Assembly (NCBI GenBank): GCA_003599145.1
Contig: QZIT01000004.1
Coordinates: forward strand, 1 to 64,000
DNA length: 64,000 nucleotides
Direction of reading: 5' to 3'
DNA from: Candidatus Woesearchaeota archaeon
Lineage (GTDB): Archaea; Nanobdellota; Nanobdellia; Woesearchaeales; UBA9642
The notes beneath the pieces were generated by a model. The model worked only from the letters and a program-made list of their open reading frames with translations, did not search any database and was not told the DNA's origin. Below are positions 24,403-48,448 of the stretch, piece by piece (the first letter of the stretch is position 1; every line of letters starts with the position of its first letter). The translations under genes were made by a program, and so were the position numbers.

Positions 24403-27400
24403 ATGGGAAAAAGAGGGCAGGTGACTATTTTTGTAATTCTAGGAATAGTCTTGATTGCGGCATTTGCCTTTGTTTTTTACGCTAAATTTTTGTTATTAGA
24501 TTCCAATCTGCAATCCCAAACAGATAAATCAGTGAGAAATTTTGTCAGAGACACATCATTAAACAATTATGTTTCAACCTGTTTGCTAAAAGTCGGCCAT
24601 AACGGCATTGAGCAAATAGCCCTGCAGGGCGGTTATCTTTATGACTATCAGCAGGGCCCTATCAACACATCTCCTTTTGTTCAAGGTGTTGATTATCTTC
24701 CTTTCAATTATTCTAATCAGTCGTTGAATGTTTCTTACGCGATTTATGCCAATGATATCTGTCCTATTGTGCAGCAGTATCCCTGGCAGTATCCCTATCC
24801 CTCTACCTACATGAACCAACTAAATATCACCTACAGAAATTTTCTCATCAATACCTGTTCAAACTTTCATCAGCAAAAGAGCGGTTTTTTTGGCTCTAAC
24901 AATCTTTCAAGAATGTGCAATTTTTTTGGAGTGAACGCATACCAAACAACCAACATCAGTGCATTGAGGTTTACCTGCGATCCATTTCACTATAATTCAT
25001 TTGGACAAACGAGCATGCAAGAGCAATTGGAATATTACACGCAAAAACATCTTCCTAACTGCACCAATTTTTCAAAATACAATCAGCTGACAGGCTATAA
25101 CGTAACGCTTCTTGACAATGCATCTGTTAAAGTTTATTTTGGAGCAAAGGACATAACCTTTTATGCAGAGTATCCCTTTGAAATTTTGGTTAACGGACAG
25201 CCTAAAACAGTTTTTTATCAGTTTACTGCTAAATCAGATGCGCAGCTGAAAGACCTCTATACCTATGTTTTTGATCTTGTCACAGAAGACGTTCAGAATC
25301 CCTTCTTTAACAAAACAAAAGATCATTACTTTTTGCATTCCTATAAAACAAGCTATCTATATCAAGAGTATAGAAACGCCTGCCCTTTGTGCATCAATGC
25401 CACGTTTGATGATATTATTGTTATTGCAGATAATGAAAGCATTGTTAACGGAAAACCCTTGACGTTTATTTTTTCCATCGTTAACAGAAGGCCCGCTTTG
25501 GAGTATCTTCATGATCCAACGCTAACGTTTTTTAATACGACAACAGACTTGCTCTATCTGGAAAACGACACCATTAATCTCAGTCCTCAAGGTTACGATC
25601 CTGACGAGCTTGACCTTTACTACAATTATTCCCTGTGGAAAGAAACGTATGATGAGTACTTTGATTTTTCCTGTTGCAATGTTTTTGGAGGGAGTGTTAA
25701 TTGCACGGTTAATTTTTCTCAGTGCAATGTGAAAATTCCGTCTGTACAACCGCAAAATTGGACTAACTCAACCGCATTTCAATTAACCAAAAGAAATGCC
25801 TCGTATCAAACAAACAGAAGCGATACAGGCTTTCATATCGTGAACATTTCAGTTAGCGATAGACAAAACCTGGTTGATTATCAAGAAGTCAGGATTACTA
25901 TTTTTGACAGACCCTTGGCAGTTATTAATGTATCGAACGCTTATGCAGATATCAATGACAGCCATGCGTCTATTGAAGACGTTTACTTTTTAGAGGCAAA
26001 TAATTCAAGACATTCTGCCATGCTTTACGGAACCATTTCTTCATTTCTGTGGCAGGACTTGCTAGAAAATTTTTCTATCAACACAACGAATGTTACGGTA
26101 CTTTTGCCAAACGAGACATTCCATATTGATGAGTCCCTCGCCATCAGCATACAGCCTATTCCTTATACCTTGGCAAACATTGCAAGATACTTTAACGAAA
26201 CAGGAGCAAGAAACGTTTCCTTGGTTGTTTTTGAAAATACGATTATAGGTATTATTTCGAGTTTGCCTGCTTATGAAGAGATTGAAGTATTTGCCTGTTT
26301 GCCTCACAGAGACAGTGCTCCTTCATGGCCGTATAACATGGTTCAAAATCCTTTGTACAGTTCTATTAACCAAGATCCCTTTCAGGCAAACCATACATGC
26401 TGTTACAATGGTTCTGACGGTGGTAGCTACGGCACCATAAAAAGCTCTGCAAACATTTGCTATACTATCATAGAGTACGGGGCAGTTTCCAGCTTTGCAG
26501 TCATTCCAGGAGCTCATATTTCGTACAACCCTCCCTCTACAGACCCTTCTCTTAACTATGCTTATCTGAACGACATCTTTAAGAGGGACTTTGAAAGAAA
26601 TTGTTCAGGATTAAGGGGAAATACCTGTACGGGACCTGCCAGTGAAACAAGAATTCATCCAAATGTTTATGATACGACAAAAGCGTGCCTTCCCGATATT
26701 TTTGACAGTGCAAGCATAACACATTTTGGAGCAAAAGGATATATTAATACAGGTCCCGCATATACTCAAACGGAGACCTGTTCAGGTCCTACGATGACAA
26801 CAGCAGTTCCTGATCCGGCAGCGGTTTCCTGCACGCTTTACAATCCACCTGAAAGTTTTGAAAGTAATTTTGGACTGAAAGACGCAAATGGAAATGCTGC
26901 TGATGGAATGTGCAATGAGCAAGGTTGGTGTGCAACGAACACAGGAGCATCAGGAGGGTACTTCAAAGCGCCTTCTGGCTACACTGCTCCTTACAATTGC
27001 ACTTCTCAGTGCAATAATGGGTATTGCGATTATCCTACAAGCTGTTTTTGCGAACAATCTTGTGGTTCAGATCCTTTTTGCCATCAAAAACCATCAGGAT
27101 ATGCTGCAAGTTTCACTGATCAAAATCCCTTGGGGCAGTACAAGCTATTCTCAACAGGAGTTCAATCAGAAACAGGTTGCGGAAATTCCTGCAACAAGCT
27201 CACCTGTTCTCCCTACACTTTCAATGCGAATGCATTAATTTGCAATACCAAAAACACAGCAACCTCTTCCCAGCAATGCGATGACGGGTATGTTTTTGAC
27301 CCTACAACCAAGAAATGCGTTGCCTGTCTTAATAACAAGGAAACGTACGGAGATACGCCCAATGGACTTTGCGAGGATGGAACAGGAAACTCTGCATATG

Positions 27401-27728: not shown

Positions 27729-30700
27729 TTGAAAAGATATACCTTTATTTTGGCATTGTTGCTTTTCTTAGCTTTTATACCAGTTGCATCTTCGTTTTGC
27801 TGTTATGGCCCTGCGTTTTCAACAACAGACTATTGTTTTGATCAGCTGGAAATGGCTGATGCTGCCCAGGCACAGGATATTTGCAATCAGGGATCTGCAA
27901 CGTGGTCTGATGCTGCAAGCTGCAATGAGATTGCCCAATGCACTACATATGGTTGTTGTTGCGATGGAACTGTTCCCGTATCAAATTCTGTAAATGGAGT
28001 TGTTCAAGCAGCATGCGAAGTAAGCCAAGAAACAAACCTTGAGTTCATTCCTTATCCTGATATACAGCAATCAGGTTCCTGTTCAGAAATATGTCAAACT
28101 TCAGGACCTCCTCCTGTAACAACCTATAGCATTGTGGGAAAAGTAGTAAATGGAGCAGGCCAGGGACTTGCTAATGTGCAGATATACTATGGAGCTAATC
28201 TTCAATGGGGACTTACTGATGGCGCTGGTAATTTTGTCATTTCTTCTTTGAATCCAGGAACATACACTGTGCGTGCAGAAAGCGGTAATGCTTGCAGTGA
28301 TGATGATCAAGTAACTGTTGTTGATCAAAATGTGCCCTTGCAGTTGACTCTTACGTGTACTGATTTTCCTATCTGGCAATGTACTTCATGGAGTGCTTGT
28401 ATTTTCGGTCAGCAAACAAGAACCTGTACTCAAACAGCTTCAACAGGAGGAACAACACCTATTGCTCCTGAATCGGCAAGAGCTTGTCAAGGCGAAGAAC
28501 CAGGGCAAGAACCTTTCTGCGATGACGCTGTTTTAAGCAATGGAGAAAAATGTTATTACGATCCAGCAACCAACACCTTTATCGACGTTTCCTGTGGCTT
28601 AAAGGAATTTTGCATACCTAAAGGATTGTCAGGAGGCTGCTTATGTTTAGTTACTCCTGAGGATACTGATATAACTCCTGGTGATGGCATTTGCGAGGGA
28701 GCAGAAACCTGTGAAAATTCTCCTGATGACTGCAGTGAGAGTTGTTTGTCTGTTTGCGAACAAGGTGTTCCTGCTATTTCAGGAATTTTGCCAGTTCCTC
28801 AATCGCAAAACGTTACGGTTTTATGGTCTATTACTGATAGAAGTTGCATTGACCATTTTATTTTGCATAAATGCACTGCTCAAGGCTGCCAAGATTTTTC
28901 AGTCAGCGAAACGCATTTTAATGACACCTTGCAGCCAGGTGTAGAATACTGTTACAATGTTACTGCAGATTTTTCAAGTCCTCTTGCAGAAGATACAACG
29001 TCTGCAAAAGCATGTTATACGTTAAATGCATCTGTTTGCCTAGCAACCCATCCTCTTGCAGATGACCAAACATTTTGTCATAATACAACAGATCAGCTCA
29101 ATGCAATAGCAACCTGCGATGCTTCTAATCAATTGAATATAACGCTTTGTTCTGCCATTACAGGAATAGCTACTTCAACGTGTTATTATAAACCTCTAAA
29201 TGGAAAAACCACCACCAATTGCACACAAACGGTTGACGGTGTTTGCGAGCTCTGCAACGGCCCTTATAGCATGTTTGGCGCTTTTGATTTTGGACTGAAA
29301 ACCAGTTTAGATATAGGATTAACGTCTTGTTCAGTATTGGAAGCAACCTATAATGCATGCTATTTTGATAAAACGCTTTTAACCGTAAATAAGTATTATG
29401 ATTGCTCTGAAGTCACCTCTTGCTATGATTATCAGTCAGCAGCTTCTTGCAATGATCCTTGCAACAAGCTTGAAGAAACATGTCAGTGGAATTCCTTTAA
29501 AGGCCTGACAGGAGTCTGTATGCCTGTTGAAAAAGAAAAACAAGACTGTGATAAGTGCAACGATGAGCAATACAATCATGTTTTCCCTGGTTGCCTTCCT
29601 GAGATGTGCAATCTTTTTGGGGATGCCTGCTATTATACTGATATCAATAATGCAGATTTATGCACAGGCCCTGGCACAGAAATAGGCAATGCCTGTTTCT
29701 ATTACATGGATGAAGCTGCCTGTGGAATACCTTCTGCAAGTTTAGACGAAACAACAAATATGCTCACCAAAAGCAATGATAACCAATCTTTAGGAACGTG
29801 CGACTGGACAGATGCTGCTCTTTGCATTAAAGACGCTGATGATGATGGTTTTGATGATTGTCCTGCAGTTGAGTTCTCAACATTAACAGAAATAACCAAG
29901 TGCAGGAATGATAATATCCCTCCAGAGTCAACGGTTTCTATTGAAGATGTCTATGATGTTGGAAAATTTGATGTTGGTATTGCTGTAAAAGACAATGCCT
30001 ATGCAGATGTTCCTGTTTTATTTTCAATGACTAAATGCGATGATGAAACGTGTGACGTTGAAAAAATCTATCCTGATAAAACATTTCCTGAATTACAAAT
30101 AAATGAGTCTGAAAATAGTTATTATCTTTTAAGGTACTTTGCAAAAGATGCTTCTAAAAATCTTGAAGTTATCAAAGAAAAAGTTATCCAGTTTATTGCG
30201 CCATTAGCAATAACGGAAAGAGCGAATAGCACGATAGGTCATTATGACATTAATTACGGATGGTTACACTCGCTTTCTTTGCATTTTTCAACGAATAGAG
30301 AAGCATTTTGCAAGGGCATTTTAACGCCTGTTAATCAAGATTCATTTGCTGCAAGAATTGACAGGCTAGGAAACGATTTCGCAATTAATTATGCCAATTT
30401 AGGAGGTGCAACGTACAACTTTGATATTTCCTGTCAGGATGCTTATTCAGAACCTGTAACTGAACGATGGACATTTTCCTTAGAGGGAGATTATGCTATT
30501 TACAATGTAACGCCTAAAGGTGGAACGTTTAACAGTTCAGATGTGGTCATTTCTTTCTTAGTATCTAATGATACTGTTGATACCCGATGTAATCTTTCTA
30601 GAGCTGGACCGACGTATGCTTTAGCAAACTATGAAACATGGACAACAGGCAATAAAGAGTATCATACGGCGCTTAAACATGCTGAACCAGGAAAATATGA

Positions 30701-31202
30701 GTATTATGCTGCGTGTGTCATTAATGTTTCTGCTCCAGCTAAGGAATATTTAGAAGGAGATTTGAATGATATGGCTTATTTCTGGATAGACACGACTAAA
30801 CCATTGACAACAGTCTTTGAATTATCATCGAATAAGCCAGTCATTTTTAACAATTCAAAAATATATGAAAATGTGACTTTGTTATTTTCTTGTAACGATA
30901 CTAATCTTGATAATGTTGAAGAACGAGAAGACATGCCGTCTCTCGACCACAATTTCGGATGCAACGCAATATACTATACCAACGTTAGCTTGAATGCTTC
31001 TTGTCCTGCGCAAGGAGTTGCATACACGGCATTGCCATCTGAAAATCCTACGCTGAAGGTTGATTATAAAAACCCTGGAAAAGCAAAGCTCTGCTATTAC
31101 AGCGTCGATAATGGAGGCAATAAAGAAACAACAAAACATGTTTTGCTCAACTTGAAAAATCTAAAACCGTTCGGCATTACGATAGCGCTGGTTCCCTCAT
31201 GA
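27729..31202 (+). CDS. Giant Sec-exported Cys-rich multidomain protein
   Basis: This 1157-aa protein has a Sec signal peptide (KRYTFILALLLFLAFIPVAS, cleavage near ASS). It includes a CarboxypepD_reg-like beta domain at about 131-200 (GKVVNGAGQGLANVQIYY, PGTYTVRAES), a thrombospondin-1-like segment (WQCTSWSACIFGQQTRTC, about 215-230), a GDGICEGAETC…DDC motif near 317-335, and many paired cysteines. The TTG start is chosen because of the signal peptide and GAGGAAGG; the frame opens further upstream but adds no signal. No C-terminal anchor is seen, so it may be released or held by a partner. It overlaps the next gene by 4 nt. Confidence 0.75.
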   Translation: MKRYTFILALLLFLAFIPVASSFCCYGPAFSTTDYCFDQLEMADAAQAQDICNQGSATWSDAASCNEIAQCTTYGCCCDGTVPVSNSVNGVVQAACEVSQETNLEFIPYPDIQQSGSCSEICQTSGPPPVTTYSIVGKVVNGAGQGLANVQIYYGANLQWGLTDGAGNFVISSLNPGTYTVRAESGNACSDDDQVTVVDQNVPLQLTLTCTDFPIWQCTSWSACIFGQQTRTCTQTASTGGTTPIAPESARACQGEEPGQEPFCDDAVLSNGEKCYYDPATNTFIDVSCGLKEFCIPKGLSGGCLCLVTPEDTDITPGDGICEGAETCENSPDDCSESCLSVCEQGVPAISGILPVPQSQNVTVLWSITDRSCIDHFILHKCTAQGCQDFSVSETHFNDTLQPGVEYCYNVTADFSSPLAEDTTSAKACYTLNASVCLATHPLADDQTFCHNTTDQLNAIATCDASNQLNITLCSAITGIATSTCYYKPLNGKTTTNCTQTVDGVCELCNGPYSMFGAFDFGLKTSLDIGLTSCSVLEATYNACYFDKTLLTVNKYYDCSEVTSCYDYQSAASCNDPCNKLEETCQWNSFKGLTGVCMPVEKEKQDCDKCNDEQYNHVFPGCLPEMCNLFGDACYYTDINNADLCTGPGTEIGNACFYYMDEAACGIPSASLDETTNMLTKSNDNQSLGTCDWTDAALCIKDADDDGFDDCPAVEFSTLTEITKCRNDNIPPESTVSIEDVYDVGKFDVGIAVKDNAYADVPVLFSMTKCDDETCDVEKIYPDKTFPELQINESENSYYLLRYFAKDASKNLEVIKEKVIQFIAPLAITERANSTIGHYDINYGWLHSLSLHFSTNREAFCKGILTPVNQDSFAARIDRLGNDFAINYANLGGATYNFDISCQDAYSEPVTERWTFSLEGDYAIYNVTPKGGTFNSSDVVISFLVSNDTVDTRCNLSRAGPTYALANYETWTTGNKEYHTALKHAEPGKYEYYAACVINVSAPAKEYLEGDLNDMAYFWIDTTKPLTTVFELSSNKPVIFNNSKIYENVTLLFSCNDTNLDNVEEREDMPSLDHNFGCNAIYYTNVSLNASCPAQGVAYTALPSENPTLKVDYKNPGKAKLCYYSVDNGGNKETTKHVLLNLKNLKPFGITIALVPS

Positions 31203-34200
31203 TTGCAAAAACTGTGAAACTACTGTTTGCTTTTTTGCTAGTTTGTATTTTATGCGCAACACTTAGCTCTGCAGACTTAGAAGTAGATATTGGTTTTATA
31301 GGGTCAACCAACGATTCAACTCCCAGTATAGATGTTACCTTTTCAGAGCCGAATGTTACGTTGGTCAGCTTTGATGTTGACGGTGCAGGGTCATTGACGT
31401 ACACAAAAAACGAAACCAATGCAACAACAAAATATCGCTTTCAAGTAAACAATATTTTGTACAATGGTCCTCACACTTTTTTTGTTTCAGGAAAAAATAG
31501 TTGGGATACCGTAGTTAATGGCACTGCCAATTTCACGGTTGATGTAGATTACATTGATATTGCTTTGGTTCAGCCTCCTTTAGGCATTGCAACGACTGCT
31601 GTTTTCGATGTGAGATTAAGAACGCAGCCATATGCAGACAGCTGCAAACTGGGAAAGATTTCTCTGAATGACAATTTTAACAATATAACCACTTGGTATG
31701 CGTCGTTGCCTTTTGTTTTATCTTTAGAGTCTCCTTCATCTCCTTCTTTTTTCTTCATAAACAACTTTAATCAGGCTGCTCCTCTTCAGTTTTCAAGCCC
31801 TGAAGAATACAAAAACTTTACCGTCATTTGCAAGGCATTTAACACCTATCATCTTGCAAAATTTGAATTGGGGTATGACACCACTGCTCCTGTGGTCAAT
31901 ATTTCCCTTAATCCAAACCCTGTTGTTGATTATGGCAGCAGGATGACCTTGTTGAATATAACTACATCTGATAGATCTGTCTGTACTATAATCCAAATTC
32001 CGAGTACACTCATCAATAATGTCAGTGCTGAGGAAAGAGCAAATTATCTGACGCTGTATTCAACGCCAATTTTCTACGATTTCATTTATTCGACTACTCT
32101 CGGCTTTCCCAACTTTCATTTTGATTACACTGCACAGTGTGTAAATCTTGCAGGGTTATCGACGCTAAAAACCTTTTCTGTTGATCTTGCTTTTGAAACT
32201 GACCTTACCATAACACAATTATCTCCGTCGTTCATTAAAGAGACCGATACCGTGGTAAATTTAGAAACAAATCTTTTATCTGATTGTTATCTCAACGGAA
32301 CATTCATGCAGTCTTTTGACAACGGAAAAACACACTCGTTGTCTTTTGTCAACCTGCCTCAGGGAAACAATACGTTTTTAGCGTCCTGCGAAGCTAAAAC
32401 AGGTGCTGTTGCAGAAAAAATAATTTCTGTTTTTGTTGACTCTCTCGCACCAACAGGAACAGTTATTGATGCACATGTCTATACTTGTTCTTTATCAACC
32501 ATACAGGCAACCATGGCTGCAAATGATTCTGGTTCTGGCGTCAAGGGATTTAATGTTTCTTTGATGAAAGGAACGCAAGCAATTATGAACTGGACGTTCT
32601 TGAGCGGAAATCCAAAGCAGTTTTTGGTTGATACGAATTTAACGAGCAATGCCGTGTACACATGGAATGCACATGCAATAGATCACGCAGGAAATGTCGC
32701 TGCTTTGGCTGTAAAATCAGTTACGGCAGTTGCCGATGGCGGTGATAGATGTGATTTTATTCCTCCTGTAGTTGATGTCTCTATTGTGAATACCAGTGAA
32801 TTCATAACAAGTGTAAGAGTCTCCTGTTCTGACAATGGTTCTGGTTGTTCGAATAACTTTAACTATTCTTTTAGCGAGGATGGTTCGTGCAGCTATGCCA
32901 GCAGGTCAACGTTAGAAACGCTTTTGCCAACGTATGTTGATGCAACATTTTGCTATCTTGTTTCAGATAACAATGGCAACGTAAAATCAGGGAGTGTTTA
33001 TGTTGATGTTCTTGCAGATGTTGGTCCATTGACCATCACTCATGCCATGCCTGAATATGTTGCTACAACTTTCCTGACTCTGGAAGTCAGAACGAATCTT
33101 GCAGCGTCGTGTTTGGTCGATAATGCAACCATGACCAAAGCAGAAAATGACAGAAAGCATACCAAATCATTTACAGGATTAAGCCAGGGAGAACGAATAT
33201 TTTCAGTACGCTGCAATGCAACAAATGAAACCGCACAGAAGGATATCGAGGTATTCATTGATTCGCTCGCTCCGTCATCAGCAGTGATAACTGCAAACAG
33301 CAGAAGCTGTGTGCTCGACGAATTACAGGCAAGCTTTGAAGCAAATGATTCTGGTTCTGGCGTCAAAGGATTTAACTATAGCATTTCCAAAGGCTCAACG
33401 GTTGTTGCCCAATGGAGGTTTGTCGATGACAATCCTGCTGACGTAGAGAGAAGCATCGACTTGGATGCAGGCTCTACCTACACTTGGAATGTGGTTACGA
33501 TAGACAAAGCAGGAAATAAGGCAGCAGCAGCTACAAAAAGCATTATTGCTTCAGATGAAGACGAAACTGCCTGCGATGAAACTCCTCCTACGGTTTCGGT
33601 TAATGTAACCAATGTTACCGGAGGTGTCATGGTTGAGCTTTCATGCAGGGATGCAGGCGTTGGCTGCGCGACAAAATATAATTACAGTTTTTCATCAACA
33701 TCTACATGCGCATATAGAAATCAAACAACGTATGGCACGAGACTTTTATTAAAGGAAACGAAGTATTTCTGCTATTATGCTTATGACAAGAACGATAATG
33801 TGGTTACAGGAAAAAAACAAATCGTGGTAAGAGCTAATAGGACAACGGGAAACGATGATGATGACCCGGATGCTAGCTGCAATAATGGCAGAAAAGACGG
33901 CTCTGAAACAGGCATTGATTGCGGAGGTTCCTGTGATTCCTGTCCAAATAATGCTGATTGCGAGCAAGATGCTGATTGTGATTCTGGTTATTGCGGACAG
34001 GGAATCTGCAAGTTGCCTTTGTGCACGGATGTCATTAAAAATGGAAGGGAAAGCGATGTTGACTGCGGTGGAAACTGCACGCAATGCGCTTTTGGAAAGT
34101 TATGCTACTTAAACACCGATTGTCAGGTTGGATTAATCTGCAGAAACAATAAATGCAGTTATGATTGTGCTCTGGATAGTGATGCTGATGGCATGAACGA

Positions 34201-37293: not shown

Positions 37294-37754
37294 AATCACA
37301 GATAGAGATTATGGGATTGGCAGTCATTATTATTTTAGTTGCTGTAGGATTCTTTTTCATCATATCCTTTAAGCTCAACAAACCTCAGATTGACCACGTG
37401 CAGACATTGAGAGATAATCAATTTGCCCAGCAGTATGTAACCAGTCTGGTAAAGACAAACACACAGTGCGGATTTACGATTACAGAATTAATGCAAGATT
37501 GCGCAGTTTTTCATAACATCAACTGCACTGTTGACAGCTGCACCTATTTAAACAGGACGCTTGAAGTAATAGCGAATAAAACCCTTTTGAATTGGAGCTA
37601 TACCTATAATCTGTCGATCAATGAACTTCATTTAGAATTTCAAAATCCTCAAAGAAACTGCACAGCAACCATGCCAAGAGCAGCGCAGGGATTTGAATTG
37701 ATTACTTTGTATGGTTTGGGCGATGTCATGATTACGCTTGACGTTTGCAAATAA
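37290..37754 (+). CDS. Prepilin-like protein, 154 aa
   Basis: It begins KSQIEIMGLAVIIILVAVGF and has a hydrophobic helix at about 7-29. The exported part contains several cysteines (CGFTITELMQDC, CTVDSC) and N-glycosylation sequons. It is the last gene of the 35784 operon. Confidence 0.6.
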   Translation: MKSQIEIMGLAVIIILVAVGFFFIISFKLNKPQIDHVQTLRDNQFAQQYVTSLVKTNTQCGFTITELMQDCAVFHNINCTVDSCTYLNRTLEVIANKTLLNWSYTYNLSINELHLEFQNPQRNCTATMPRAAQGFELITLYGLGDVMITLDVCK

Positions 37755-37800: not shown

Positions 37801-37917
37801 ATGGCAGATGGAGAGCAGGATGTAACCTGGAATAAATTAGTGTTGTATATTTTGCTTGCCCTTGTTCTTATCATCATGATTGTTTTATTCCTCAAGGTGA
37901 GAAAATCGCTCCTATGA
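37801..37917 (+). CDS. 38-aa single-span membrane protein
   Basis: This micro-gene encodes MADGEQDVTWNKLVLYILLA then a continued hydrophobic helix and KVRKSLL. It is an acidic head, one membrane helix (about 13-31) and a basic end, which suggests N-out topology. Its TATA box is correctly placed and it overlaps the next gene by ATGA. It is probably a small component of the same complex. Confidence 0.65.
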   Translation: MADGEQDVTWNKLVLYILLALVLIIMIVLFLKVRKSLL

Positions 37918-38744
37918 AAAAAGCAGAAATAGGAACAGTAGTAACAGCAATCATCTTTATTGTATCAGCTATACTGCTTATTGTTTTTGGAAAAGCGATT
38001 ATAGATACCCTCAACAAGGATATAGACAGAAATGACTGCAAGGACAGTGTCTTTGCGCAGTCAGTAACCACCTTGAGAAAAGATTTTGGAATAACGACTG
38101 TTGAAGCAAGCCTGCTGAATTACCGTTGTCCAAGGTATCAAATAACTTTCTTCCCAGATCATGTGGATTTTGGATTCTTTAAGGGGAAAAAACTCCAGAC
38201 AGAGACCTATGAAATTAGCCTTCCCTATCAGCAGCCGACAAAAAAAATTTCGCAATTGAATAATCAAATAGTTAATCATGTTCTTGCTGAAGAACTCAAA
38301 TGGTGCTGGTGGCAGTTTCATGAAGGAAAACTGCATTTGTTTAGAAGCGAAAAAAGCCTGATTTTCAATGACTTTGGAGATAACGACGAAATGTGCTTTG
38401 TCTGCAACGAAATACGATTTTCTCCAGAGGTAGCACAAAAGGAGTTTACAGGATTTTTTGATTATATCAACATAACAAAGGTTCCTGGCAAAGAATACAC
38501 GTATTATGATTATATTGCAGGCTTGAATAACCAGTACTGCTATAAGTATGCAGATAAACCTAATTGCTGGGAAGCTTTTATCGCCGACCATGCAGGAATA
38601 GCCAGAGAGCCTGTTTTTGATACCTCTCAAACATACACTATTGTTTTTATGCGCATGGGTCAGGATCCTTTGGCAGATACTTATTTTAGCTATCTTCTTC
38701 CGTATAGTGAATTGAACAAACAATGCAATGTGCAGGCAACCTGA
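37914..38744 (+). CDS. Prepilin-like protein, 276 aa, paralogue of the next gene
   Basis: It starts MKKA-EIGTVVTAIIFIVSA (K-K-A-E pattern, helix at about 5-27). Residues 45 onward share a pattern with the next protein: C-K-D/N…, a CW…EGKLxLF segment (CWWQFHEGKLHLF), CxxC (CFVC) plus an N-E/I-I-R-F-like strand, and a Y-x-E/D-Y segment near an IPLK/NITK site. Several more cysteines follow. The function is unknown. Confidence 0.65.
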   Translation: MKKAEIGTVVTAIIFIVSAILLIVFGKAIIDTLNKDIDRNDCKDSVFAQSVTTLRKDFGITTVEASLLNYRCPRYQITFFPDHVDFGFFKGKKLQTETYEISLPYQQPTKKISQLNNQIVNHVLAEELKWCWWQFHEGKLHLFRSEKSLIFNDFGDNDEMCFVCNEIRFSPEVAQKEFTGFFDYINITKVPGKEYTYYDYIAGLNNQYCYKYADKPNCWEAFIADHAGIAREPVFDTSQTYTIVFMRMGQDPLADTYFSYLLPYSELNKQCNVQAT

Positions 38745-39586
38745 TGGCAGAACGAACGACTTCAAACATGTTGGTGTTGATTATTATTTGCTTAGCCGGT
38801 TTGCTCATTCTTTTTTTGATCGTTAAAAATATACGGATGGTTACTGAAGATGCTGTTGAGGATGCCGAATGTAAAAACGGCGTTTTGCAGCATGCGCTTG
38901 CCGTTAAAATGACCCGTGAAGATGTTGAGCCTGAAATAAAATGCAGAACCAATAAAATTACAGTCTATGAAGCTGACGAAGAAGCTGTGAAAAAGCAGAT
39001 AGCAGAGCGCATGAGAGTTTGTTGGTCTACCTGGGGCGAGGGCAAATTGACACTATTTCAAAAAGAAGGCATTTATTGTCACGTTTGCGATATTATTGAA
39101 TTCAAAGACCGTGTTGAAGTAAACAATTTTGCGCTCTGGTTAAATACCCACGAAATCCCCTTAAAAAATACGACCTATGCAGAATATATGTCTGCAGTGA
39201 ACAGGGAAGAATCCTTAATTGAACATCCTCCTCAGCCGCAAATAACAGACTCATTTACAACAGATGAAAGATATTCCGTTATTTTTACGTATGCAAAAGG
39301 ACAATCTGCGATAACCGAGTTCTTAGCAGGAAACAGAGGATTTTTCCTTGCAGGAGGAACAGGTGCTGTTTTAGCAGGAACCTTATTCTCAGCGGGAGTC
39401 ATTGCTGTTTCAGGTCCTATAGGCTGGATTTTGGGAGGTGTGGCTGTTGCAGGTGCAGGCGTTGGCTCAGTAGCGTTTTCGTTAACTTCTCCTGATATAG
39501 GCTGGATATCAACAGTTTCTTTTGTTGAATACAATGCAGACAATATCAAAGCGTTAAACTGCGAAATAGCTCCTGCTGTACCGTAA
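38744..39586 (+). CDS. Membrane protein, 280 aa, with glycine-rich hydrophobic hairpin
   Basis: The N-terminal helix (about 9-29, MLVLIIICLAGLLILFLIV) follows AERTTS. It has CWSTWGEGKLTLF, CHVC and IPLKNTTYAEYM, which mark it as a paralogue of the previous gene. Unlike that one, it carries at about 195-245 a Gly/Ala-rich hydrophobic stretch (GGTGAVLAGTLFSAGVIAVS, GGVAVAGAGVGSVAF) that looks like a glycine-zipper hairpin able to enter a membrane. The start ATG 38744 overlaps the previous TGA. Confidence 0.65.
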   Translation: MAERTTSNMLVLIIICLAGLLILFLIVKNIRMVTEDAVEDAECKNGVLQHALAVKMTREDVEPEIKCRTNKITVYEADEEAVKKQIAERMRVCWSTWGEGKLTLFQKEGIYCHVCDIIEFKDRVEVNNFALWLNTHEIPLKNTTYAEYMSAVNREESLIEHPPQPQITDSFTTDERYSVIFTYAKGQSAITEFLAGNRGFFLAGGTGAVLAGTLFSAGVIAVSGPIGWILGGVAVAGAGVGSVAFSLTSPDIGWISTVSFVEYNADNIKALNCEIAPAVP

Positions 39587-39762: not shown

Positions 39763-40125
39763 ATGGAAATTTCTACATTTGGTAAAGTCGTTTTAATGCT
39801 TTTGGTAGTTGGTGTTGTGCTGTTTGCGGGCGTTCCTGCGCTCGCCAATACTAAAGGAGGCTTGGCTGATCTAGTAGGATTAGATACTGTTTTTGGTTCT
39901 GGAAGAGAAAAGCAAGAAGCAATAAACCAGATAAGAGATGCTATAGCTTATTGTTCCTTGACTAAAGCAGAAGTCTGCGGAAAAGTAGAATCTAAAAAGA
40001 CCATAAAGCAGGAAGAAGTTATTGCAAACACTCCTGTGCAATGGAATATTCAAGAGGGAAAGTGCTTTAGTTTTGCCTATGATCAGGCAAATAGCAAGGT
40101 ATTGGTCAATCCTTGTTTAAAATAA
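39763..40125 (+). CDS. Small exported/membrane protein, 120 aa
   Basis: It has an N-terminal hydrophobic helix (about 8-25, VVLMLLVVGVVLFAGVPALA) that could be a signal peptide with an ALA cleavage site or a prepilin-type anchor (E-I-S-T-F-G-K). The exported part has four Cys. Its last 20 nt recur 318 nt downstream in another frame (see the duplication). Confidence 0.6.
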   Translation: MEISTFGKVVLMLLVVGVVLFAGVPALANTKGGLADLVGLDTVFGSGREKQEAINQIRDAIAYCSLTKAEVCGKVESKKTIKQEEVIANTPVQWNIQEGKCFSFAYDQANSKVLVNPCLK

Positions 40126-40760: not shown

Positions 40761-41009
40761 ATGAAAAAAGCAGTAGAAATGTCACTGAATACCATCGTCA
40801 TTGCTGTTTTAGTGCTGCTAGTTTTGGCAATTCTTGCTTTTTTATTGTTAGGTGGAGCAAAAAACTTCACTACAAAATCTGCATGCATTAAAGAAGGTGG
40901 TACTTGTCAGAACGCACCTTGTCCTACTGGTTATGAGCAAGTATCTTCCACTGAACTTTGCCCTTCTGGTTCAGGTCAAGTGTGTTGTAGGGTTCAGCTC
41001 ACACCATGA
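40761..41009 (+). CDS. Cys-rich mini-pilin C, 82 aa
   Basis: It starts MKKA-VEMSLNTIVIAVLVLL and has one helix and the module CIKEGGTCQNAPCPTGYEQ…CPSGSGQVCC, a variant of the same six-Cys pattern ending in VCC. It overlaps the next gene by ATGA. Confidence 0.7.
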   Translation: MKKAVEMSLNTIVIAVLVLLVLAILAFLLLGGAKNFTTKSACIKEGGTCQNAPCPTGYEQVSSTELCPSGSGQVCCRVQLTP

Positions 41010-42403
41010 ACAAATCAGGACTTGGAGATATTGGCACAGTAGGAAAAATTTTAATTGTTCTCTTAGCTGTGCTTGTGCTGATTGTTATTTTTACCAATAC
41101 GACAAAGGAATTGCAGCAGTGCAGAGTTCCCAATCAATGCGTTGCAGCAAGCGATTGTGAAGAAGGAGCAGTGTTAAATTCTATGTATTGTGAAGATCCT
41201 GCGAAAACGCAAGTTTGCTGCCAAAGAGTAAAAGAAAAGCCTCAGGAAACAACATCCATTCTTGCAAAAGGAGAATCATACACACTTAAAGAATATCAAC
41301 ATAGCGTCAAGGTTGATGACATTTCTGCAGATGGAAGTACGGTAACATTAACGATAACTAGCACTCCTGTAACAGAAACCTTTACTGCAGGAGTTCCTAA
41401 ACAAGTTACGTTAACAGAAGCAGATGGAACGCAAAAAGTCTATGAAGTTACAGTAGCCACGCGTAAAATAGGAGATATCTGGCAGGCAACTGTGCAAATG
41501 AAACAAGTTGTACCTGTCGGCTCTGACGGAACAGGTTCAGGAGATTCGCCATCAGTAATATCTGTTATTCATAAAGAAGCAGAGGTGAAGAATGGCCAAA
41601 CAGTGCAGTATACAGATTCTGCAGAATTGCATTTCAGCTTTAAAGTACAAAATCCTCCAGGCAGTTGCGTTGCTTACATAGCTGATTCTGCAAATAAGCT
41701 TTTAGCAGATACCAATGGAGAGGTAAGGGAAGTGTTTGAAAAAGATGCCTGTAAAGAATGGCAGGAATTTCCATGGCAGTTAGATGCGGGATTAGATGCA
41801 AAATACCTGCAAATCATTTCCTTTAAAGATGGTTGCACTCCAAGGCCTAGAGGAGCACCAGATGATGCTCAATATTATAACTCAAAATTAGCTTCTTGTT
41901 GGGCATCTTCTGTAAAGATTGTGTTGCAGAAACAAGTGCCTTATGGACCTCCTGATAATGGAACTGGTAATCCTGAAAATAATCAACCCAACATAGCTGT
42001 TTGCGAACCCAATAAAATTATCCAAACCAGATGTGCATGTGGTTCTGTTGATTTTGATCCTTTGCTGTTGCAACCCAGGGAACATGCTTGCATAAATAAT
42101 GCTCTTCAGCAATTTCCTAGTTCATCAAACTGTCCTTCTGGAATAAAAACGCAAAGCACCTGCAGATGTGGCGATGATATCCTTACAGAATCTATGACTG
42201 ATCTATTCTGCTTTGAGTCTATTGCCTACAGTTGTACTGAACTTAATTCCTGCAATGGTTATTGCGCGCTTGATGGAGAACCTAACGACTGCTTGGAAGA
42301 CACGGTGACTCTGTGTGATAATAATCCTTGCGGATTTGGAAGCGGTTGTCAACTATCTGGTTCAGGCATTCAAACAAGAACATGTACTGCTTACTATACG
42401 TAA
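41006..42403 (+). CDS. Prepilin-like protein with Cys module and beta domains, 465 aa
   Basis: It starts MNKSG-LGDIGTVGKILIVL, one helix, then the same Cys module (CRVPNQCVAASDCEEGA…VCC, to about residue 72). After this come a beta-rich domain (YTLKEYQHSVKVDDISADGS) and a Cys-rich C-terminal third (CACGSV, CRCGDD, CNGYCALDG). It reads as a mini-pilin fused to a larger exposed head. No enzyme motif was seen. Confidence 0.65.
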   Translation: MNKSGLGDIGTVGKILIVLLAVLVLIVIFTNTTKELQQCRVPNQCVAASDCEEGAVLNSMYCEDPAKTQVCCQRVKEKPQETTSILAKGESYTLKEYQHSVKVDDISADGSTVTLTITSTPVTETFTAGVPKQVTLTEADGTQKVYEVTVATRKIGDIWQATVQMKQVVPVGSDGTGSGDSPSVISVIHKEAEVKNGQTVQYTDSAELHFSFKVQNPPGSCVAYIADSANKLLADTNGEVREVFEKDACKEWQEFPWQLDAGLDAKYLQIISFKDGCTPRPRGAPDDAQYYNSKLASCWASSVKIVLQKQVPYGPPDNGTGNPENNQPNIAVCEPNKIIQTRCACGSVDFDPLLLQPREHACINNALQQFPSSSNCPSGIKTQSTCRCGDDILTESMTDLFCFESIAYSCTELNSCNGYCALDGEPNDCLEDTVTLCDNNPCGFGSGCQLSGSGIQTRTCTAYYT

Positions 42404-42407: not shown

Positions 42408-42713
42408 ATGAACAAAAAAGCTTTTGAAATAGGAAAACTTGGATCCATATTGCTTATGCTAGCGGTCATTCTCGTTGTCTACTTTGCCATTATCCGTCCT
42501 ATAGTGCTCAATGCGCAAAGTGCAACTGATTTAAGCCAGTGTGAAAAATCTACGCTTCCAGGAGAAACAACGATAGGAAAACCAGTCAAAGGCGTTTGCA
42601 AGCAAGATGCCTGTGAGACGAACGTTTATGCTCAATCCATTAGTGATTATGGCTGCAAGCAAAAATATGGAGATAGTTACGTTTGCTGCATTCCTAAACC
42701 TGTTGAACCATAA
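42408..42713 (+). CDS. Cys-rich mini-pilin D, 101 aa
   Basis: It starts MNKKA-FEIGKLGSILLMLA, one helix to about 30, then CEKSTLPGETTIG…CKQDAC…YGCKQKYGDSYVCC. It ends in the same VCC signature as its neighbours. It is the last gene of the mini-pilin operon. ATG 42408 is selected over an upstream in-frame extension inside the previous gene. Confidence 0.65.
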   Translation: MNKKAFEIGKLGSILLMLAVILVVYFAIIRPIVLNAQSATDLSQCEKSTLPGETTIGKPVKGVCKQDACETNVYAQSISDYGCKQKYGDSYVCCIPKPVEP

Positions 42714-42745: not shown

Positions 42746-43651
42746 ATGAAAAAAGGCTTTCTTACCTGGGAAGCAATGGTCAAGCTGATTATTGCAGCGA
42801 TTATTATTGTGTTTATGGTTTTTGCCTTTTCAAAATGCATGAGCTCTCTTTTTGGAGGTAATAAAGACCAGGCAGCCATAGATGGCTTTAGATTGCTTGC
42901 ATATAATGTTAATTCTTTGATTAGCTCTGGCGAGGAGTATGGCTCTTCTGAAACTATTGTTTATTTTCCTAAAGGTTACTACATAATAGGGTTTGATAAG
43001 CGAGAGGATGGCCATGTGACCTACAGAAAGCCTTCTAAGTGCTATGAAAATAATCAGCCGCAAGCATGTCTTTGTCTTTATAATGATAAACCCGAACCTG
43101 ATAATAAGGATGAAAACATCTTAACTTGCATGGTTTTTCAATCTGAAAAAGAAGTCGTATTTTTGACAGAAAAGGACTTTATTTCTACGAATAACATAGA
43201 TTCTGTTTTTTCTTCAGGATTGCAAAGAAATGATGTTGATTATGGTTCTGCTTTTCCTCAGGATTTAACCAATAATTTTGACAAGCAATATCAGAAGTAC
43301 TTTCAATCTAAATACTATTTTCTTCATTTAATAGGAAATGATGATTTACAGTATATTCCCCTGTACTCGGACATGGCTAAAGCAGACGGAAAGATCATTA
43401 TTTATGTTGCAAGATCCACGGAACCTGTATATTTCTTCAGCCTGCTTTTTAAGGATCCTGCCTACGGCACAGTAAATGAAATCAGACCTTTGGTTATGGA
43501 AAAAAAGATCAATCTGTGCACTTTTAATCAGCCAATAACCTCTCCATGCATATGCCATAGAAATGCAGATACTTCTTTGAATATTTCTGATTCTGGCTAT
43601 TGTTGTGTAAAGGACGATAAAGTTATTTATCACTCAACAACGACCTGTTAA
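42746..43651 (+). CDS. Prepilin-like protein, 301 aa
   Basis: It starts MKKG-FLTWEAMVKLIIAAII (K-K-G plus E, helix at about 12-30). The exported part has an aromatic beta-rich domain (VYFPKGYYIIGFDKR), several paired Cys (CLCLYND, CICHRN, CCVKDD), and few sequons. It has its own leaderless promoter. No family was recognised. Confidence 0.6.
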   Translation: MKKGFLTWEAMVKLIIAAIIIVFMVFAFSKCMSSLFGGNKDQAAIDGFRLLAYNVNSLISSGEEYGSSETIVYFPKGYYIIGFDKREDGHVTYRKPSKCYENNQPQACLCLYNDKPEPDNKDENILTCMVFQSEKEVVFLTEKDFISTNNIDSVFSSGLQRNDVDYGSAFPQDLTNNFDKQYQKYFQSKYYFLHLIGNDDLQYIPLYSDMAKADGKIIIYVARSTEPVYFFSLLFKDPAYGTVNEIRPLVMEKKINLCTFNQPITSPCICHRNADTSLNISDSGYCCVKDDKVIYHSTTTC

Positions 43652-43688: not shown

Positions 43689-44504
43689 ATGGATAAAAGG
43701 GGTATGGAGAAGGATCTCTATTTTTTTATTATAGAGATTGTTTTTGTTCTTGCAACAGGCATTTTGCTCTTTTGGTATGTTTCCATAAACGCAGATTCTA
43801 CTTTATTCTGGAAAAATTACTATGCAAAAGACCTTGCCTTAACCATGGATGCTGTTGAAGGTGTTCCGGAAGATGTTGATATAACCTTTGCTCCCTTAAG
43901 CATAGACCATGCTTTTGAGTATGAACTGCTGCAAGGCATAGTGAATATCTATGCTGTTCCGAGAGATCTGCCTTCAAGATTTCACTTTGCTGTAGATTCT
44001 TATTATTCGTTTTCCAACCAAAATTTTTTCAGCGGCTTTCAAATAAAAAAACAAGGAAGAAATATTGCTTTCAATGAGCAGCCTTTGGAAAACGCCTGCA
44101 AAAATATCCTAACAAAAGATGATTACAAGGAAAAACATTATTTTATAGGGTCAACTGATGAAACTTTTGCGAAGAATGTTAAGGCAGCTTTAGAAAATGG
44201 CTTGAAAAACGAAAATGTTGCTCTCGAAAGCTATCCTATTGATGCAGATTTCTCACTGCAAATCAAACAGGATTCAACAATCAGTGAAACAACCATTTAC
44301 GTTAATGGAGAGCATCCTAAAAGCAAAAAATTTGCATGCATTCTTGAAGAAAAATTAATAGCAAAACGATTTTCTGTTACGACCAACGAGCTTGTTTTGC
44401 AGAAACAGCCATCTGCCGTCATCGTTTTAGGAACAAAAGATGATTTAGATATTAACACCCTTGTTCCGGCAATCTTTGAATCCATAAAGGAGTATTACCA
44501 ATGA
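43689..44504 (+). CDS. Prepilin-like protein, 271 aa
   Basis: It starts MDKRG-MEKDLYFFIIEIVF, one helix (about 10-30). The exported domain is alpha/beta with few Cys (CKNIL, CILEEKL). It contains no recognised motif. It overlaps the next gene by ATGA. Confidence 0.6.
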   Translation: MDKRGMEKDLYFFIIEIVFVLATGILLFWYVSINADSTLFWKNYYAKDLALTMDAVEGVPEDVDITFAPLSIDHAFEYELLQGIVNIYAVPRDLPSRFHFAVDSYYSFSNQNFFSGFQIKKQGRNIAFNEQPLENACKNILTKDDYKEKHYFIGSTDETFAKNVKAALENGLKNENVALESYPIDADFSLQIKQDSTISETTIYVNGEHPKSKKFACILEEKLIAKRFSVTTNELVLQKQPSAVIVLGTKDDLDINTLVPAIFESIKEYYQ

Positions 44505-45004
44505 AAAATGCCCAAGTAAAAAGAATGTTGCTGAACATTTACAGGTTTATTTTTCTGGCATTTGTTTTGGGAGTCACTGTCTTCTTAATAAAGTTCATGG
44601 TAATAACTAATTTAGAAACAGAGGCAGTGGAAAAGGAAGTGTTCTTCAACAGAGTTTTGTATGGAACAGCAATCAATTATCAGGACCCTGTAACACAAAA
44701 AATATACCCAGGCATTGTTGACATGGTTAAATTTACTTCAGCAAATCTAGAGCAACACATTAATTATTCCATAAAAGACCGATTAGGAGCCCAGCTAGAT
44801 TTAAAAAACCTGAAAACAAATGAAACAAAAACCATTTATCTCAATGAACAATGGTATCTTGATAAGCGTCCTTTATTCCTTGCAAATGTTCAGGGGAGAG
44901 GCAGCGTGAAAGGATATATCAGAGCAGTTCCTGTAACGATCTATGAAAATAACAGCCACGCTCAGGGAATATTGACCATACACCTATTGAGGCAGAATGA
45001 TTAG
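44501..45004 (+). CDS. Membrane-anchored protein, 167 aa
   Basis: A basic N-terminus (KNAQVKRMLLNIYR) and one helix (about 15-34) precede a Cys-free exported domain (YPGIVDMVKFTSANLEQHIN). The longer charged lead is less prepilin-like than its neighbours. It overlaps the next gene by 8 nt. Confidence 0.6.
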   Translation: MKNAQVKRMLLNIYRFIFLAFVLGVTVFLIKFMVITNLETEAVEKEVFFNRVLYGTAINYQDPVTQKIYPGIVDMVKFTSANLEQHINYSIKDRLGAQLDLKNLKTNETKTIYLNEQWYLDKRPLFLANVQGRGSVKGYIRAVPVTIYENNSHAQGILTIHLLRQND

Positions 45005-45530
45005 ATTCAATAAAAAAGGAGAAGATGCGCTTGTTGACTTTATAGCCATAGGTATTTTTATTCTAACCGTTATTGCATTATTTGTGCTTTACACGTTTGT
45101 TGGCAAACCAACCAATCAGGCTGTGCAGGAACAGTTTGATGAAATCGAAACAGGAACAGTATTAACGTTCTTATTGAAAATGCCTGTAGAATTCGAACAG
45201 AAAAATTTTACGGTTGCTGAATTAATCATTCTTTCAAAGGCAGATCAAAAATATAAAGATAAACTTGAAGCAGAGCTTCCTAAAATTTTTACGCTCTATG
45301 GGACAGAACCTGTGTATTATGAACTTGAAACTGCTGATTTGTATATCGTGAAAGACAAGCAATGGTGGACTACAAGACAAGTGACAAAGCAAAAGACTCA
45401 AACCTATACAGAAAAAGCCCATCTTCCAGGATTAGATGGCAAGATTATTGAAGTCGAGTTTACTTTTGGCTATATGCTTAATGGAAAAAGTTTGTGGGCA
45501 TTATTTCAATATGCGAGGATGACTCCATGA
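44997..45530 (+). CDS. Prepilin-like protein, 177 aa
   Basis: It starts IRFNKKG-EDALVDFIAIGI, a good class III-type signal (K-K-G, then E), with a helix at about 13-31. The exported part lacks Cys and is beta/alpha mixed (VYYELETADLYIVKDKQWWT). Its end overlaps the start of the cell-wall-hydrolase gene by 4 nt, so the two are translationally coupled. Confidence 0.65.
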   Translation: MIRFNKKGEDALVDFIAIGIFILTVIALFVLYTFVGKPTNQAVQEQFDEIETGTVLTFLLKMPVEFEQKNFTVAELIILSKADQKYKDKLEAELPKIFTLYGTEPVYYELETADLYIVKDKQWWTTRQVTKQKTQTYTEKAHLPGLDGKIIEVEFTFGYMLNGKSLWALFQYARMTP

Positions 45531-48448
45531 AAAAAGCGCAATTACTCACTGCAGGCATAGCTTTTGTAGCCATAGCAGCGCTGATTTTTGGCTACGTTGC
45601 ACTGTCAAAAAGTCTTCAGCCTGCAGACAAAACCCCTATTGGCACAAAGCAGTACGAAATTTTTAAGGCAGCCCAAGAAGCACAGAAAGCCCAGGTTTAC
45701 GTTGATGAATCTGCCAAGTTGGCACTGTCGAAAAGTCTGTACACCTTGGGGCTTACAGGAGGCTTTTATGCTCAGCAACTGGGTGATGACGCGCTCACGG
45801 TTCAGGTAGATTATCCTTGCGGAAGTTATATTTATCCGCTCTGGAATACAGAAACTCAAGAGTGCTATCCTGTTTTGCAAGAGCAAGTTTCTTTTTCAAT
45901 GAATGATTATCTTAAAGAGTATTATGCATCCTATGGCGAGAGTACAGGCATATTCATGCCCTCAAGGCATACCATGACTATTAGTCAAAATGGTCTTTCT
46001 GCTGTAGCATTGGAAAACAGCAACATTCCTTTAGGCAGCTATGCTTTTCAGGGCATTTCTGTTCCGGAAGATGAACCTGTTCTTATTTGCAGTACAGGAG
46101 AATGCGTTATGGGTGTTGCAGATTATTACTATGCTAAATTCGGTCCAGGAGGAAAAAGCTTTGGTTATATTTGGGGCGGGGAAAATCCTTATGCACCAGC
46201 AACTCCAACAACGCAGTTTTTTGCAGGAACAGATACAACTCAAACTCAACCAGGTTTTGATTGCTCTGGATGGACATGGTGGGTCATGAAACACGCAGGC
46301 GTTTCTTCTTTTGAACAAAGAGCAACAGCAACTGATTATTTGCAAATGGCCAGAGCAAGGGCAGTGCTTGTCTGCGGAGATGGAGGAAATCTTTGCACGC
46401 TGGATGTTATCAATCAGCAGGCACAGCCAGGAGATGTTCTATTTATTCACCCTAAGAGTGGAGGAGTTGGTCACGTTGCATTGTATGCGGGCAATGGAGA
46501 ATTAATGGAATCTGCAGGAGGCATTGGCTTAATCAAACGAGCAATACCTGCAAATTATCTGCCAGGAGGAAAAGCGCAAATTCACAGTATTTATCGATTT
46601 CCTTATGATCCAAACGGAGAGGAGCTTTTTACCAGCACTGTTTTCCACCAAACAAAAGCAGATGTTGACAGTGAAGATAGAGTAACCTGTACGCATCATA
46701 TAACGTTTGCAGAAAGGCCTCTTCTTGATGAAAAAGAGATACAGAACATTTTGGAAGACAGAAAAAGCCCTGCTGCAGAATACGCAAGCGTTATTTATCA
46801 AAAAGCTATGGAAACAAAAATAGATACTGCTTTTGCATTGGCAGTCTTTGCCCATGAATCGCTCTATGGAACTGCAGGAGTTGCAACCAGAACCAATGGA
46901 TTTGGAAATAGAAGGCCCCCTCAGGCATGCGTCTATGATAAAAATCAATGCCAGATAAATGGAAAATGTTCTGTAACCAACTGCAATTGCAATTTTGTTG
47001 ACTACAATAGCAAAACAGGATACTTTTGTGGTTATGATGGCTGGGAAGCATCTATTAATGACTGGTTTGACTTTGTCAAAAGAAATTACGTTGATAAAGG
47101 AATAAACACCCCTGAAGATTTTGTTCCTGTCTATGCTCCTGCCTCAGAGAATGATGTCAATGCCTATACTGGTTTTATCTATAAATACATGGACAAGTAT
47201 GCCGAAACAGACAGGAGTGAATGCAAGGAAAGGTCTTTTGAATCTGCAGGATACTATCCCACTAAGCAAAGCTTCACCATTAGTCCTTCTTATGATCTCG
47301 GAACATATACAGCACTTGCAGATTTTGCAAAGCAGACTGTTGCAAGTTGCCAGAATCAAGTTGCTGATTGCGTTGATCATGAGATAGCAACGTTTAATGC
47401 AAATAACGACATAGAACTCTCAAGAAGCTGTGAACAGGAAACTGTTTTTTATGATATTGCAGAGGGCATTGAAGACTGCAAATTGAGCGAGGATACTGAT
47501 TGTGTCTGCCAAATTTCATATGATGCAACAAAGCAGAAAAACGACCAGGAAATTTTGTTTTACTACAACGAAACCTATAAGATGTATTTTATGAAGCAGG
47601 GAGATGCTAGCTATGCTCTTAACATTGATGAGCTTTATTATTCTGATGATCCAAATATAGGACCAGCAAATACGATACATAAACAGTATTCCTATGAAGT
47701 GTTCTATGAAAACGACGTTTTTAAAGAAGCAAAATTAAGCATAGAAAATAAAATCCAAACAACCATATCCGGAAACAAAAAAGTCTATGCCATAGACAAA
47801 CCGCAGTTTGCAATCTACAAATTTAAACAGAATTTTGTTTCGTTGGATTATCAATATACGCTGCTTTCACCAGAATCAAACCTCAAACAATGTACGGTGA
47901 AAAAAACAAACTTCAGAGTTTGTGCCAAAACACAGTCTGTTACGTTATTCGAAAATGATAAACTCGTTGAAAAACCCGTATTCATAAAGTTTGCTTTGCA
48001 TATTGATGATGCCATTCCACCTTCAAGGCTTACAGGGTTAACGATGAATGATGTTTCTGGATTTTCAGATTCCTTACTTTTAAGCTGGAACATTCCTCAG
48101 GAAACAGATGTTGCTAGTTATGCGATCTATTATGCTAAAGCTCCCTTTACTCAGAATCCTGGAAATAGCTTGAATGTGAGTGCAGTTCCTTTGCACACCT
48201 TTTCAACAGTTTCATTAACCAATAAGCAGTGCGATGCCTATGGAATTCTTTGCAATTATTATGTTGAAGGCATTCCCCTTGAACCTGGTAATATCTATGC
48301 TGATGCAACCAAGCACTATCTGATTCTTGATGGCTTGGAAGATACTACCTATTATCTGGCAGTTATTGCTCTGGATGCAAATAATAATGAACACGCAGAG
48401 TTTGTGCAGGGCTTTAACTACGGCAGTGCGACAGTCTCAAATCAGTAA
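45527..48448 (+). CDS. Prepilin-anchored NlpC/P60 plus glucosaminidase-like protein with FN3 domain
   Basis: This 973-aa protein starts MKKA-QLLTAGIAFVAIAALI, the local prepilin-like signal. At about 195-360 is an NlpC/P60 (C40) peptidase: FDCSGW with Cys246, PGDVLF, and GHVALYAG with His316. At about 405-560 is a lysozyme-like, glucosaminidase-type domain with HES at 443-445 (Glu444), GFGNRR, and WEASINDWFDFVK. Residues about 840-960 look like a fibronectin III domain (SDSLLLSWNIPQETDVASYA). C40 and GH73-type enzymes cut murein, which archaea of this kind are not known to make, so the target may be a partner's wall. It is the last gene of the cluster. Confidence 0.78.
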   Translation: MKKAQLLTAGIAFVAIAALIFGYVALSKSLQPADKTPIGTKQYEIFKAAQEAQKAQVYVDESAKLALSKSLYTLGLTGGFYAQQLGDDALTVQVDYPCGSYIYPLWNTETQECYPVLQEQVSFSMNDYLKEYYASYGESTGIFMPSRHTMTISQNGLSAVALENSNIPLGSYAFQGISVPEDEPVLICSTGECVMGVADYYYAKFGPGGKSFGYIWGGENPYAPATPTTQFFAGTDTTQTQPGFDCSGWTWWVMKHAGVSSFEQRATATDYLQMARARAVLVCGDGGNLCTLDVINQQAQPGDVLFIHPKSGGVGHVALYAGNGELMESAGGIGLIKRAIPANYLPGGKAQIHSIYRFPYDPNGEELFTSTVFHQTKADVDSEDRVTCTHHITFAERPLLDEKEIQNILEDRKSPAAEYASVIYQKAMETKIDTAFALAVFAHESLYGTAGVATRTNGFGNRRPPQACVYDKNQCQINGKCSVTNCNCNFVDYNSKTGYFCGYDGWEASINDWFDFVKRNYVDKGINTPEDFVPVYAPASENDVNAYTGFIYKYMDKYAETDRSECKERSFESAGYYPTKQSFTISPSYDLGTYTALADFAKQTVASCQNQVADCVDHEIATFNANNDIELSRSCEQETVFYDIAEGIEDCKLSEDTDCVCQISYDATKQKNDQEILFYYNETYKMYFMKQGDASYALNIDELYYSDDPNIGPANTIHKQYSYEVFYENDVFKEAKLSIENKIQTTISGNKKVYAIDKPQFAIYKFKQNFVSLDYQYTLLSPESNLKQCTVKKTNFRVCAKTQSVTLFENDKLVEKPVFIKFALHIDDAIPPSRLTGLTMNDVSGFSDSLLLSWNIPQETDVASYAIYYAKAPFTQNPGNSLNVSAVPLHTFSTVSLTNKQCDAYGILCNYYVEGIPLEPGNIYADATKHYLILDGLEDTTYYLAVIALDANNNEHAEFVQGFNYGSATVSNQ

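Follow-up and report, generated by a model that had tools for sequence, protein, structure and literature searches.

A run of 20 consecutive genes in a woesearchaeal genome encodes prepilin-like and giant exported proteins. The reading that we favor, and consider fairly probable, is a surface machine resembling type IV filaments, in which wall-cutting enzymes would be carried on a modular pilin and the most likely target is bacterial. The strongest clue, missed in the initial annotation of this DNA, is that the enzyme borne by the last protein of the run, O, is swapped from species to species among unrelated peptidoglycan hydrolases, pointing to a bacterial target. All conclusions are drawn from sequence and from one confident predicted structure, that of protein F.

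The gene cluster and its conservation

The window, the whole 64,000-nucleotide stretch of DNA that was analyzed, sits on contig 4 of 6 of a 1.31-Mb genome that is 97% complete. Its open reading frames agree with the initial annotation, which had described a run of about 20 plus-strand genes with ATGA overlaps, closed by a wall-hydrolase-like gene. Positions 24403-48448 hold an unbroken series of 20 plus-strand genes, among which six -4 (ATGA) overlaps occur, and the closing gene encodes the 973-residue O, with an NlpC/P60 domain (E=1.4e-12) and a glucosaminidase-like domain. The left flank is a ribosomal-protein region whose last gene, L14e-like, lies at 23983-24339. The genes, and the right-hand neighbor R, are as follows.

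A, 24403..27669, plus strand: 1088 aa, Cys-rich (4.6%), exported, with prepilin-like N-terminus (KRG, then QVTIFVIL); present in part of the relatives
B, 27729..31202, plus strand: secreted giant of about 1157 aa, 6.2% Cys, class-I-like signal peptide, CarboxypepD_reg match (E=8e-8)
C, 31199..35245, plus strand: Ig-like stalk of 1348 aa (weak match here), 3.1% Cys, one transmembrane segment near the C-terminus
D, 35242..35721, plus strand: 159 aa, prepilin-like
E, 35784..36806, plus strand: 340 aa, prepilin-like, with the conserved motif QFNWIF; serves as the cluster marker
F, 36808..37293, plus strand: 161 aa, prepilin-like, invariant Glu12
G, 37290..37754, plus strand: 154 aa, prepilin-like
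H, 37914..38744, plus strand: 276 aa, prepilin-like, with a Cys pattern common to H and I
I, 38723..39586, plus strand: 287 aa, membrane-anchored relative of H, invariant Cys residues
Unlettered, 39763..40125, plus strand: membrane-anchored protein of 120 aa; no relatives found
P1, 40181..40438, plus strand: 85 aa, prepilin-like, conserved N-terminal helix and small six-Cys domain
P2, 40499..40753, plus strand: 84-aa paralogue of P1
P3, 40761..41009, plus strand: 82-aa paralogue of P1
Unlettered, 41006..42403, plus strand: prepilin-like protein of 465 aa, Cys-rich (5.6%); almost no relatives found
Unlettered, 42408..42713, plus strand: prepilin-like protein of 101 aa, Cys-rich; almost no relatives found
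K, 42746..43651, plus strand: 301 aa, prepilin-like
L, 43689..44504, plus strand: 271 aa, prepilin-like
M, 44501..45004, plus strand: 167 aa, membrane-anchored
N, 44997..45530, plus strand: 177 aa, prepilin-like
O, 45527..48448, plus strand: 973 aa, prepilin-like N-terminus, NlpC/P60 and glucosaminidase-like domains, conserved C-terminal region
R, 48488..49534, plus strand: OB-fold protein resembling replication factor A (RPA-like)

R is the constant right-hand neighbor of O in many genomes; it is probably outside the machine, with no evident functional link. Farther downstream, at 50089-51745, are two tandem paralogous membrane proteins of the SpoIIM family, also seen downstream in some relatives. 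Two unlinked exported proteins, encoded at 49580-50053 and at L166:10203-11387, share a near-identical N-terminal helix, MEKMxxWIxSLVAxVxIVGMV.

Useful Pfam matches within the cluster are confined to B, C (weak) and O. The pilin and archaellin families of Pfam match none of the proteins of the cluster, and matches to defensin, Haspin kinase, TadB/TadC_N and similar models, all under cut-off, were discarded.

A shared N-terminal pattern, a K/R-rich lead followed by a hydrophobic helix, had been described for these proteins in the initial annotation. Under a strict sequence rule for class III signals (a short K/R lead, then A, G or S, then a hydrophobic helix), 13 of 19 called cluster genes qualify, against 14 of 463 elsewhere (Fisher p=4e-14). 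With the added demand of a Glu within 7 residues, the counts become 10 of 19 and 2 of 463 (p=3e-14). The 463 background genes were called by a simple gene caller over about 388 kb outside the window, some 30% of the genome. Gene A (KRGQVTIFVIL...) is absent from the caller's set, which makes the figure for the cluster, if anything, an underestimate. With such numbers, the earlier observation is correct and far from chance. Two points need correction: the signal peptides of B and C are ordinary, class-I-like ones and not of the prepilin type, and the start of B is probably TTG 27729, which follows a purine-rich stretch, and not ATG 27600 within gene A.

The description of the giants as adhesin-like is supported: relatives of C, whose homologues reach 5588 aa, contain Ig-like Big_13 and TSP3 domains. 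The predicted cytoplasmic tail of C is 281 aa long, and ranges from 155 to 396 aa across all relatives checked. The giant, Ig-like, Cys-rich proteins B and C may be pictured as adhesins or stalks. We also considered whether A, B and C might be the known large murein transglycosylases, and rejected this since no hydrolase domain was found in four B/C relatives scanned.

The AlphaFold model of F (pLDDT 92.1, pTM 0.77) has a 55-residue N-terminal helix (residues 5-59), two short helices and a four-stranded sheet, which we take to be the layout of a type IV pilin. A Foldseek search of the PDB with this model gave no significant match to a solved pilin (best E 0.06). A search with the model of the O N-terminus, a poor one (pLDDT 70.5), gave nothing significant, and sequence searches of the PDB with E, F and O N-terminal profiles gave nothing credible. 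In a filament of this kind the subunits would be the small Cys-rich P together with larger, non-identical minor subunits (A, D-I, K-N), with P1 a candidate major subunit.

A profile was built for each cluster gene, and gene order was read in 80 loci and about 70 more. The order A-B-C-D-E-F-G-(H/I)-P-K-L-M-N-O-R is near-invariant across Woesearchaeota. In a set of 140 loci, partly redundant because two collections contribute some of the same species, the canonical order holds for 852 of 859 adjacent pairs, and 999 of 1003 genes lie on one strand. Synteny in relatives, which the initial annotation had looked to for support, is thus conserved, and the scattering of genes that it had named beforehand as contrary evidence is not seen. 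Of 145 genomes of the order, 126 have gene E, or 105 of 122 if only those of good quality are counted, as do 157 of 193 genomes of a phylum sample. It is almost always single-copy, and these are raw counts that ignore relatedness. For the pattern search with E, a closer subset of its relatives was used, the full alignment being too diverse. The taxa recorded for these relatives are Woesearchaeota or Nanoarchaeota. Gaps and mis-binned contigs are possible in these metagenome-assembled genomes; one contig that carries the cluster (L095, JAFCCF010000001.1) is named Candidatus Aminicenantes bacterium, and is probably a wrongly binned archaeal contig. In other orders of the class, the loci seen contain only a C-D-E-F-G core, with a large secreted protein typically encoded just after it.

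Prepilin peptidase and motor genes

The class III signals would be trimmed by a prepilin peptidase encoded outside the cluster. Its gene, and those for an ATPase and a platform protein, had been predicted to lie elsewhere in the genome, and candidates for all three are there. The single prepilin peptidase gene of this genome is at G000:C1:219268-219597 (E=7e-16), and 139 of 145 genomes of the order have one. Two ordinary ATPase-TadC-TadC loci are also present. The TadC domain PF00482 is absent from 24 of the 145 genomes, most of which have E. Because many genomes with the cluster lack this domain, a machine without a motor was at first suggested. That reading, a motor-less anchoring system, was abandoned when a profile search revealed that nearly all of these genomes have a third, divergent ATPase, about 760 aa long, adjoining a TadC-like protein of about 740 aa; the two genes are adjacent in most of 16 loci read. 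In the genome studied here, the divergent ATPase (C3:133225-135504) and a 743-aa TadC-like protein (C3:137829-140060) are unlinked to the cluster.

The divergent ATPase matches archaeal GspE, CpaF and FlaI structures with E=5.5e-35 to 3e-19, and the NCBIfam model for FlaI at 8e-38, far below the family cut-off. The 743-aa protein has no match in Pfam; its profile match to ordinary TadC is moderate (hhalign E=3e-5, probability 73%). The TadC-like gene occurs in 188 of 193 genomes, a raw count ignoring relatedness, and in all 14 sampled genomes that have E and lack PF00482 TadC, where for 4 of the 14 the absence of TadC means no entry among the matches listed. Some genomes with the divergent motor have no detectable E, and most genomes retain an ordinary TadC system as well. 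As there is no linkage between motor and cluster, their suggested pairing draws on co-occurrence and elimination. Co-segregation of motor subtype and E was set aside as proof of the pairing, as the genomes with the divergent motor are other lineages, in which E may simply be undetectable. In the mechanism that we propose, the divergent FlaI/CpaF-type ATPase and the 743-aa TadC-like platform would assemble a short pilus or pseudopilus, for which the cluster would supply the extracellular part.

Protein O, its exchangeable hydrolases and their probable target

In O, the NlpC/P60 domain spans residues 214-331 and scores over the Pfam cut-off, and a glucosaminidase-like domain spans residues 424-559. 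The catalytic Cys and His motifs are present (DCSG from residue 245, GHVALY from residue 315). Relatives of O match one another mostly at their N- and C-terminal ends; the middle differs because, according to domain scans, the domain there is exchanged. In 26 of 43 individually scanned genomes, O has a peptidoglycan hydrolase domain, above the Pfam cut-off in 23. The types are SLT, M23, M15/VanY, NlpC/P60, Amidase_2, Amidase_3 and M74, families that we take to represent five unrelated folds. Amidase_3 occurs with M74, and some O proteins carry two hydrolase domains. Certain genomes have two neighboring genes in place of a single O, with the N-terminus and the hydrolase encoded by the first of them. 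Catalytic motifs are mostly kept among the relatives checked: the HxH motif of M23 in nine of nine and its H-x-D motif in seven, the Glu-Ser of SLT in four of four, and the M15 motif in one of three. In the remaining 17 of the 43 genomes, many from two lineages (f25, f60), O has no recognized hydrolase, and one of these has a phosphoesterase. We regard O as a candidate modular pilin. The enzyme that it would display is exchangeable and, for the majority of lineages, cuts peptidoglycan by hydrolysis.

Individual homologues depart from this pattern. A calcineurin-like phosphoesterase or an added TPM domain is found in those at L223:15605-17083 and L184:10751-14275, and among other homologues there are isolated matches to polysaccharide deacetylase and NAGPA. 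The slot is therefore broader than wall hydrolases. The genome also has a second wall-hydrolase-like locus, in which an 843-aa protein (G000:C1:570480-573011; L063:10480-13011, minus strand) shares 55% identity, over one stretch, with the NlpC/P60 region of O and adjoins a class-III-like protein (L063:13052-14248).

No Mur ligase domain was found in this genome or in four sampled members of its family, and the domain is absent from 89 of the 145 genomes of the order, this one included. Given this lack of Mur ligases, the wall to be cut probably belongs to another cell, and the enzymes of O are most likely aimed at the peptidoglycan of a bacterium. The machine would fix the archaeon to another cell and locally open the peptidoglycan of that cell. 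A further-reaching version, which we offer as a tentative possibility, is a dedicated wall-breaching organelle, unlike ordinary archaeal pili, that docks on living bacteria, opens their peptidoglycan, and has its enzyme swapped with the prey or host.

The same genes might instead encode a type IV pilus of the ordinary adhesive sort, rich in minor pilins. The enzyme of O would then be incidental, or would serve to scavenge nutrients from dead bacteria. We think this rather unlikely, as five unrelated folds have been exchanged at one position with their catalytic motifs mostly kept, which suggests selection for peptidoglycan cutting. In its favor are the O proteins with no recognized hydrolase, a motor and a peptidase that belong to type IV filaments, and the precedent of archaeal pili with multiple pilins (PMC4858521). 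Scavenging and attack are indistinguishable by sequence.

An S-layer-associated envelope scaffold, in which class III signals would provide membrane anchoring for wall parts and no filament is built, seems improbable to us. Of three scanned secreted proteins that follow the core in other orders of the class (L224:7779-10064, L232:3551-5815, L236:4145-6841), two resemble S_layer_C, one over the cut-off, and the third has no domain match. The core itself is near-universal and single-copy, resembling housekeeping envelope genes, and the model of F has no significant match to a solved pilin. However, prepilin-type N-termini fit a secreted assembly better, a conserved secretion ATPase and TadC-like platform occur in nearly the same genomes, and the giants have Ig repeats of adhesin type. 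That the hydrolases remodel the archaeon's own wall is very improbable: a Mur_ligase_M protein does occur in 56 of 145 genomes of the order, but it is mostly a single gene of about 400 aa, too few for murein synthesis (a few genomes have several), and the genome studied here and its sampled family members have none.

Comparison with known systems

Few partners of the abundant Woesearchaeota are known, and all cultivated DPANN archaea are described, in the accessible part of one account, as dependent on archaeal hosts (PMC11291902). A near-universal machine with peptidoglycan-specific enzymes would point to bacteria, and if the wall-breaching organelle is real, a major DPANN lineage would have bacteria as its hosts or prey. 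The genes are testable: hydrolase types on O could be set against the wall chemistry of the bacteria found alongside. Some 20 mostly unannotated families gain a common context, and a motor largely missed by standard profiles comes into view.

The initial annotation presented the cluster as a new surface machine. The ordered cluster is indeed conserved; its distance from known systems was overstated, because both motor and peptidase come from the type-IV-filament repertoire and because some DPANN dark-matter islands had already been inferred to be diverged pilins (Makarova, Wolf and Koonin 2019, PMC6393860). In the open literature consulted, we found no description of the ordered cluster, the exchangeable hydrolase slot on a prepilin-like carrier or the pairing with a divergent motor. 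These three are apparently new, while woesearchaeal murein transglycosylases are already known.

Of the systems that can be compared, the DPANN islands are close in that unannotated, signal-bearing island proteins were read as diverged pilins; the accessible part of that paper does not describe a conserved cluster, a phylum-wide distribution or a hydrolase slot (PMC6393860). Archaeal type IV pili likewise combine class III proteins, an ATPase with TadC, a prepilin peptidase and large surface proteins, and their pilin sets can stand apart from the motor (Makarova et al. 2016, PMC4858521; a term search of its text finds no mention of DPANN). In contrast to these pili, about 15 non-identical prepilin-like proteins stand here in one fixed cluster with no linked motor, the ATPase and TadC-like protein are much more divergent, and one subunit bears an enzyme.

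Peptidoglycan-degrading proteins of large size have been reported from these same lineages. Woesearchaeota and Pacearchaeota have a common protein module with large murein transglycosylases, for which attachment to bacterial walls was proposed (Castelle et al. 2021, PMC8204110), and predatory Woesearchaeota were proposed on similar grounds (Vigneron et al. 2022, PMC9723730). Both reports, in their accessible parts, treat single enzymes, and do not describe gene context, a prepilin-like carrier, hydrolase exchange or a motor. A further study describes peptidoglycan hydrolases of archaea that are aimed at bacterial walls and kill bacteria; it detected them through homology, in about 5% of archaeal genomes and prominently in Nanoarchaeota, and pilins are unmentioned in its text (PLoS Biol 2025, PMC12352652).

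For the carrier, there is a resemblance to the bacterial modular type IV pilins, such as PilB and PilC of Streptococcus sanguinis, where a pilin bears a functional module as a graft (PMC8179133). Like O as we interpret it, these have many exchangeable modules, and the likeness would be to their small pilin module. What O bears, by contrast, is a peptidoglycan hydrolase, and for its archaeal carrier no relative was detected among solved structures.
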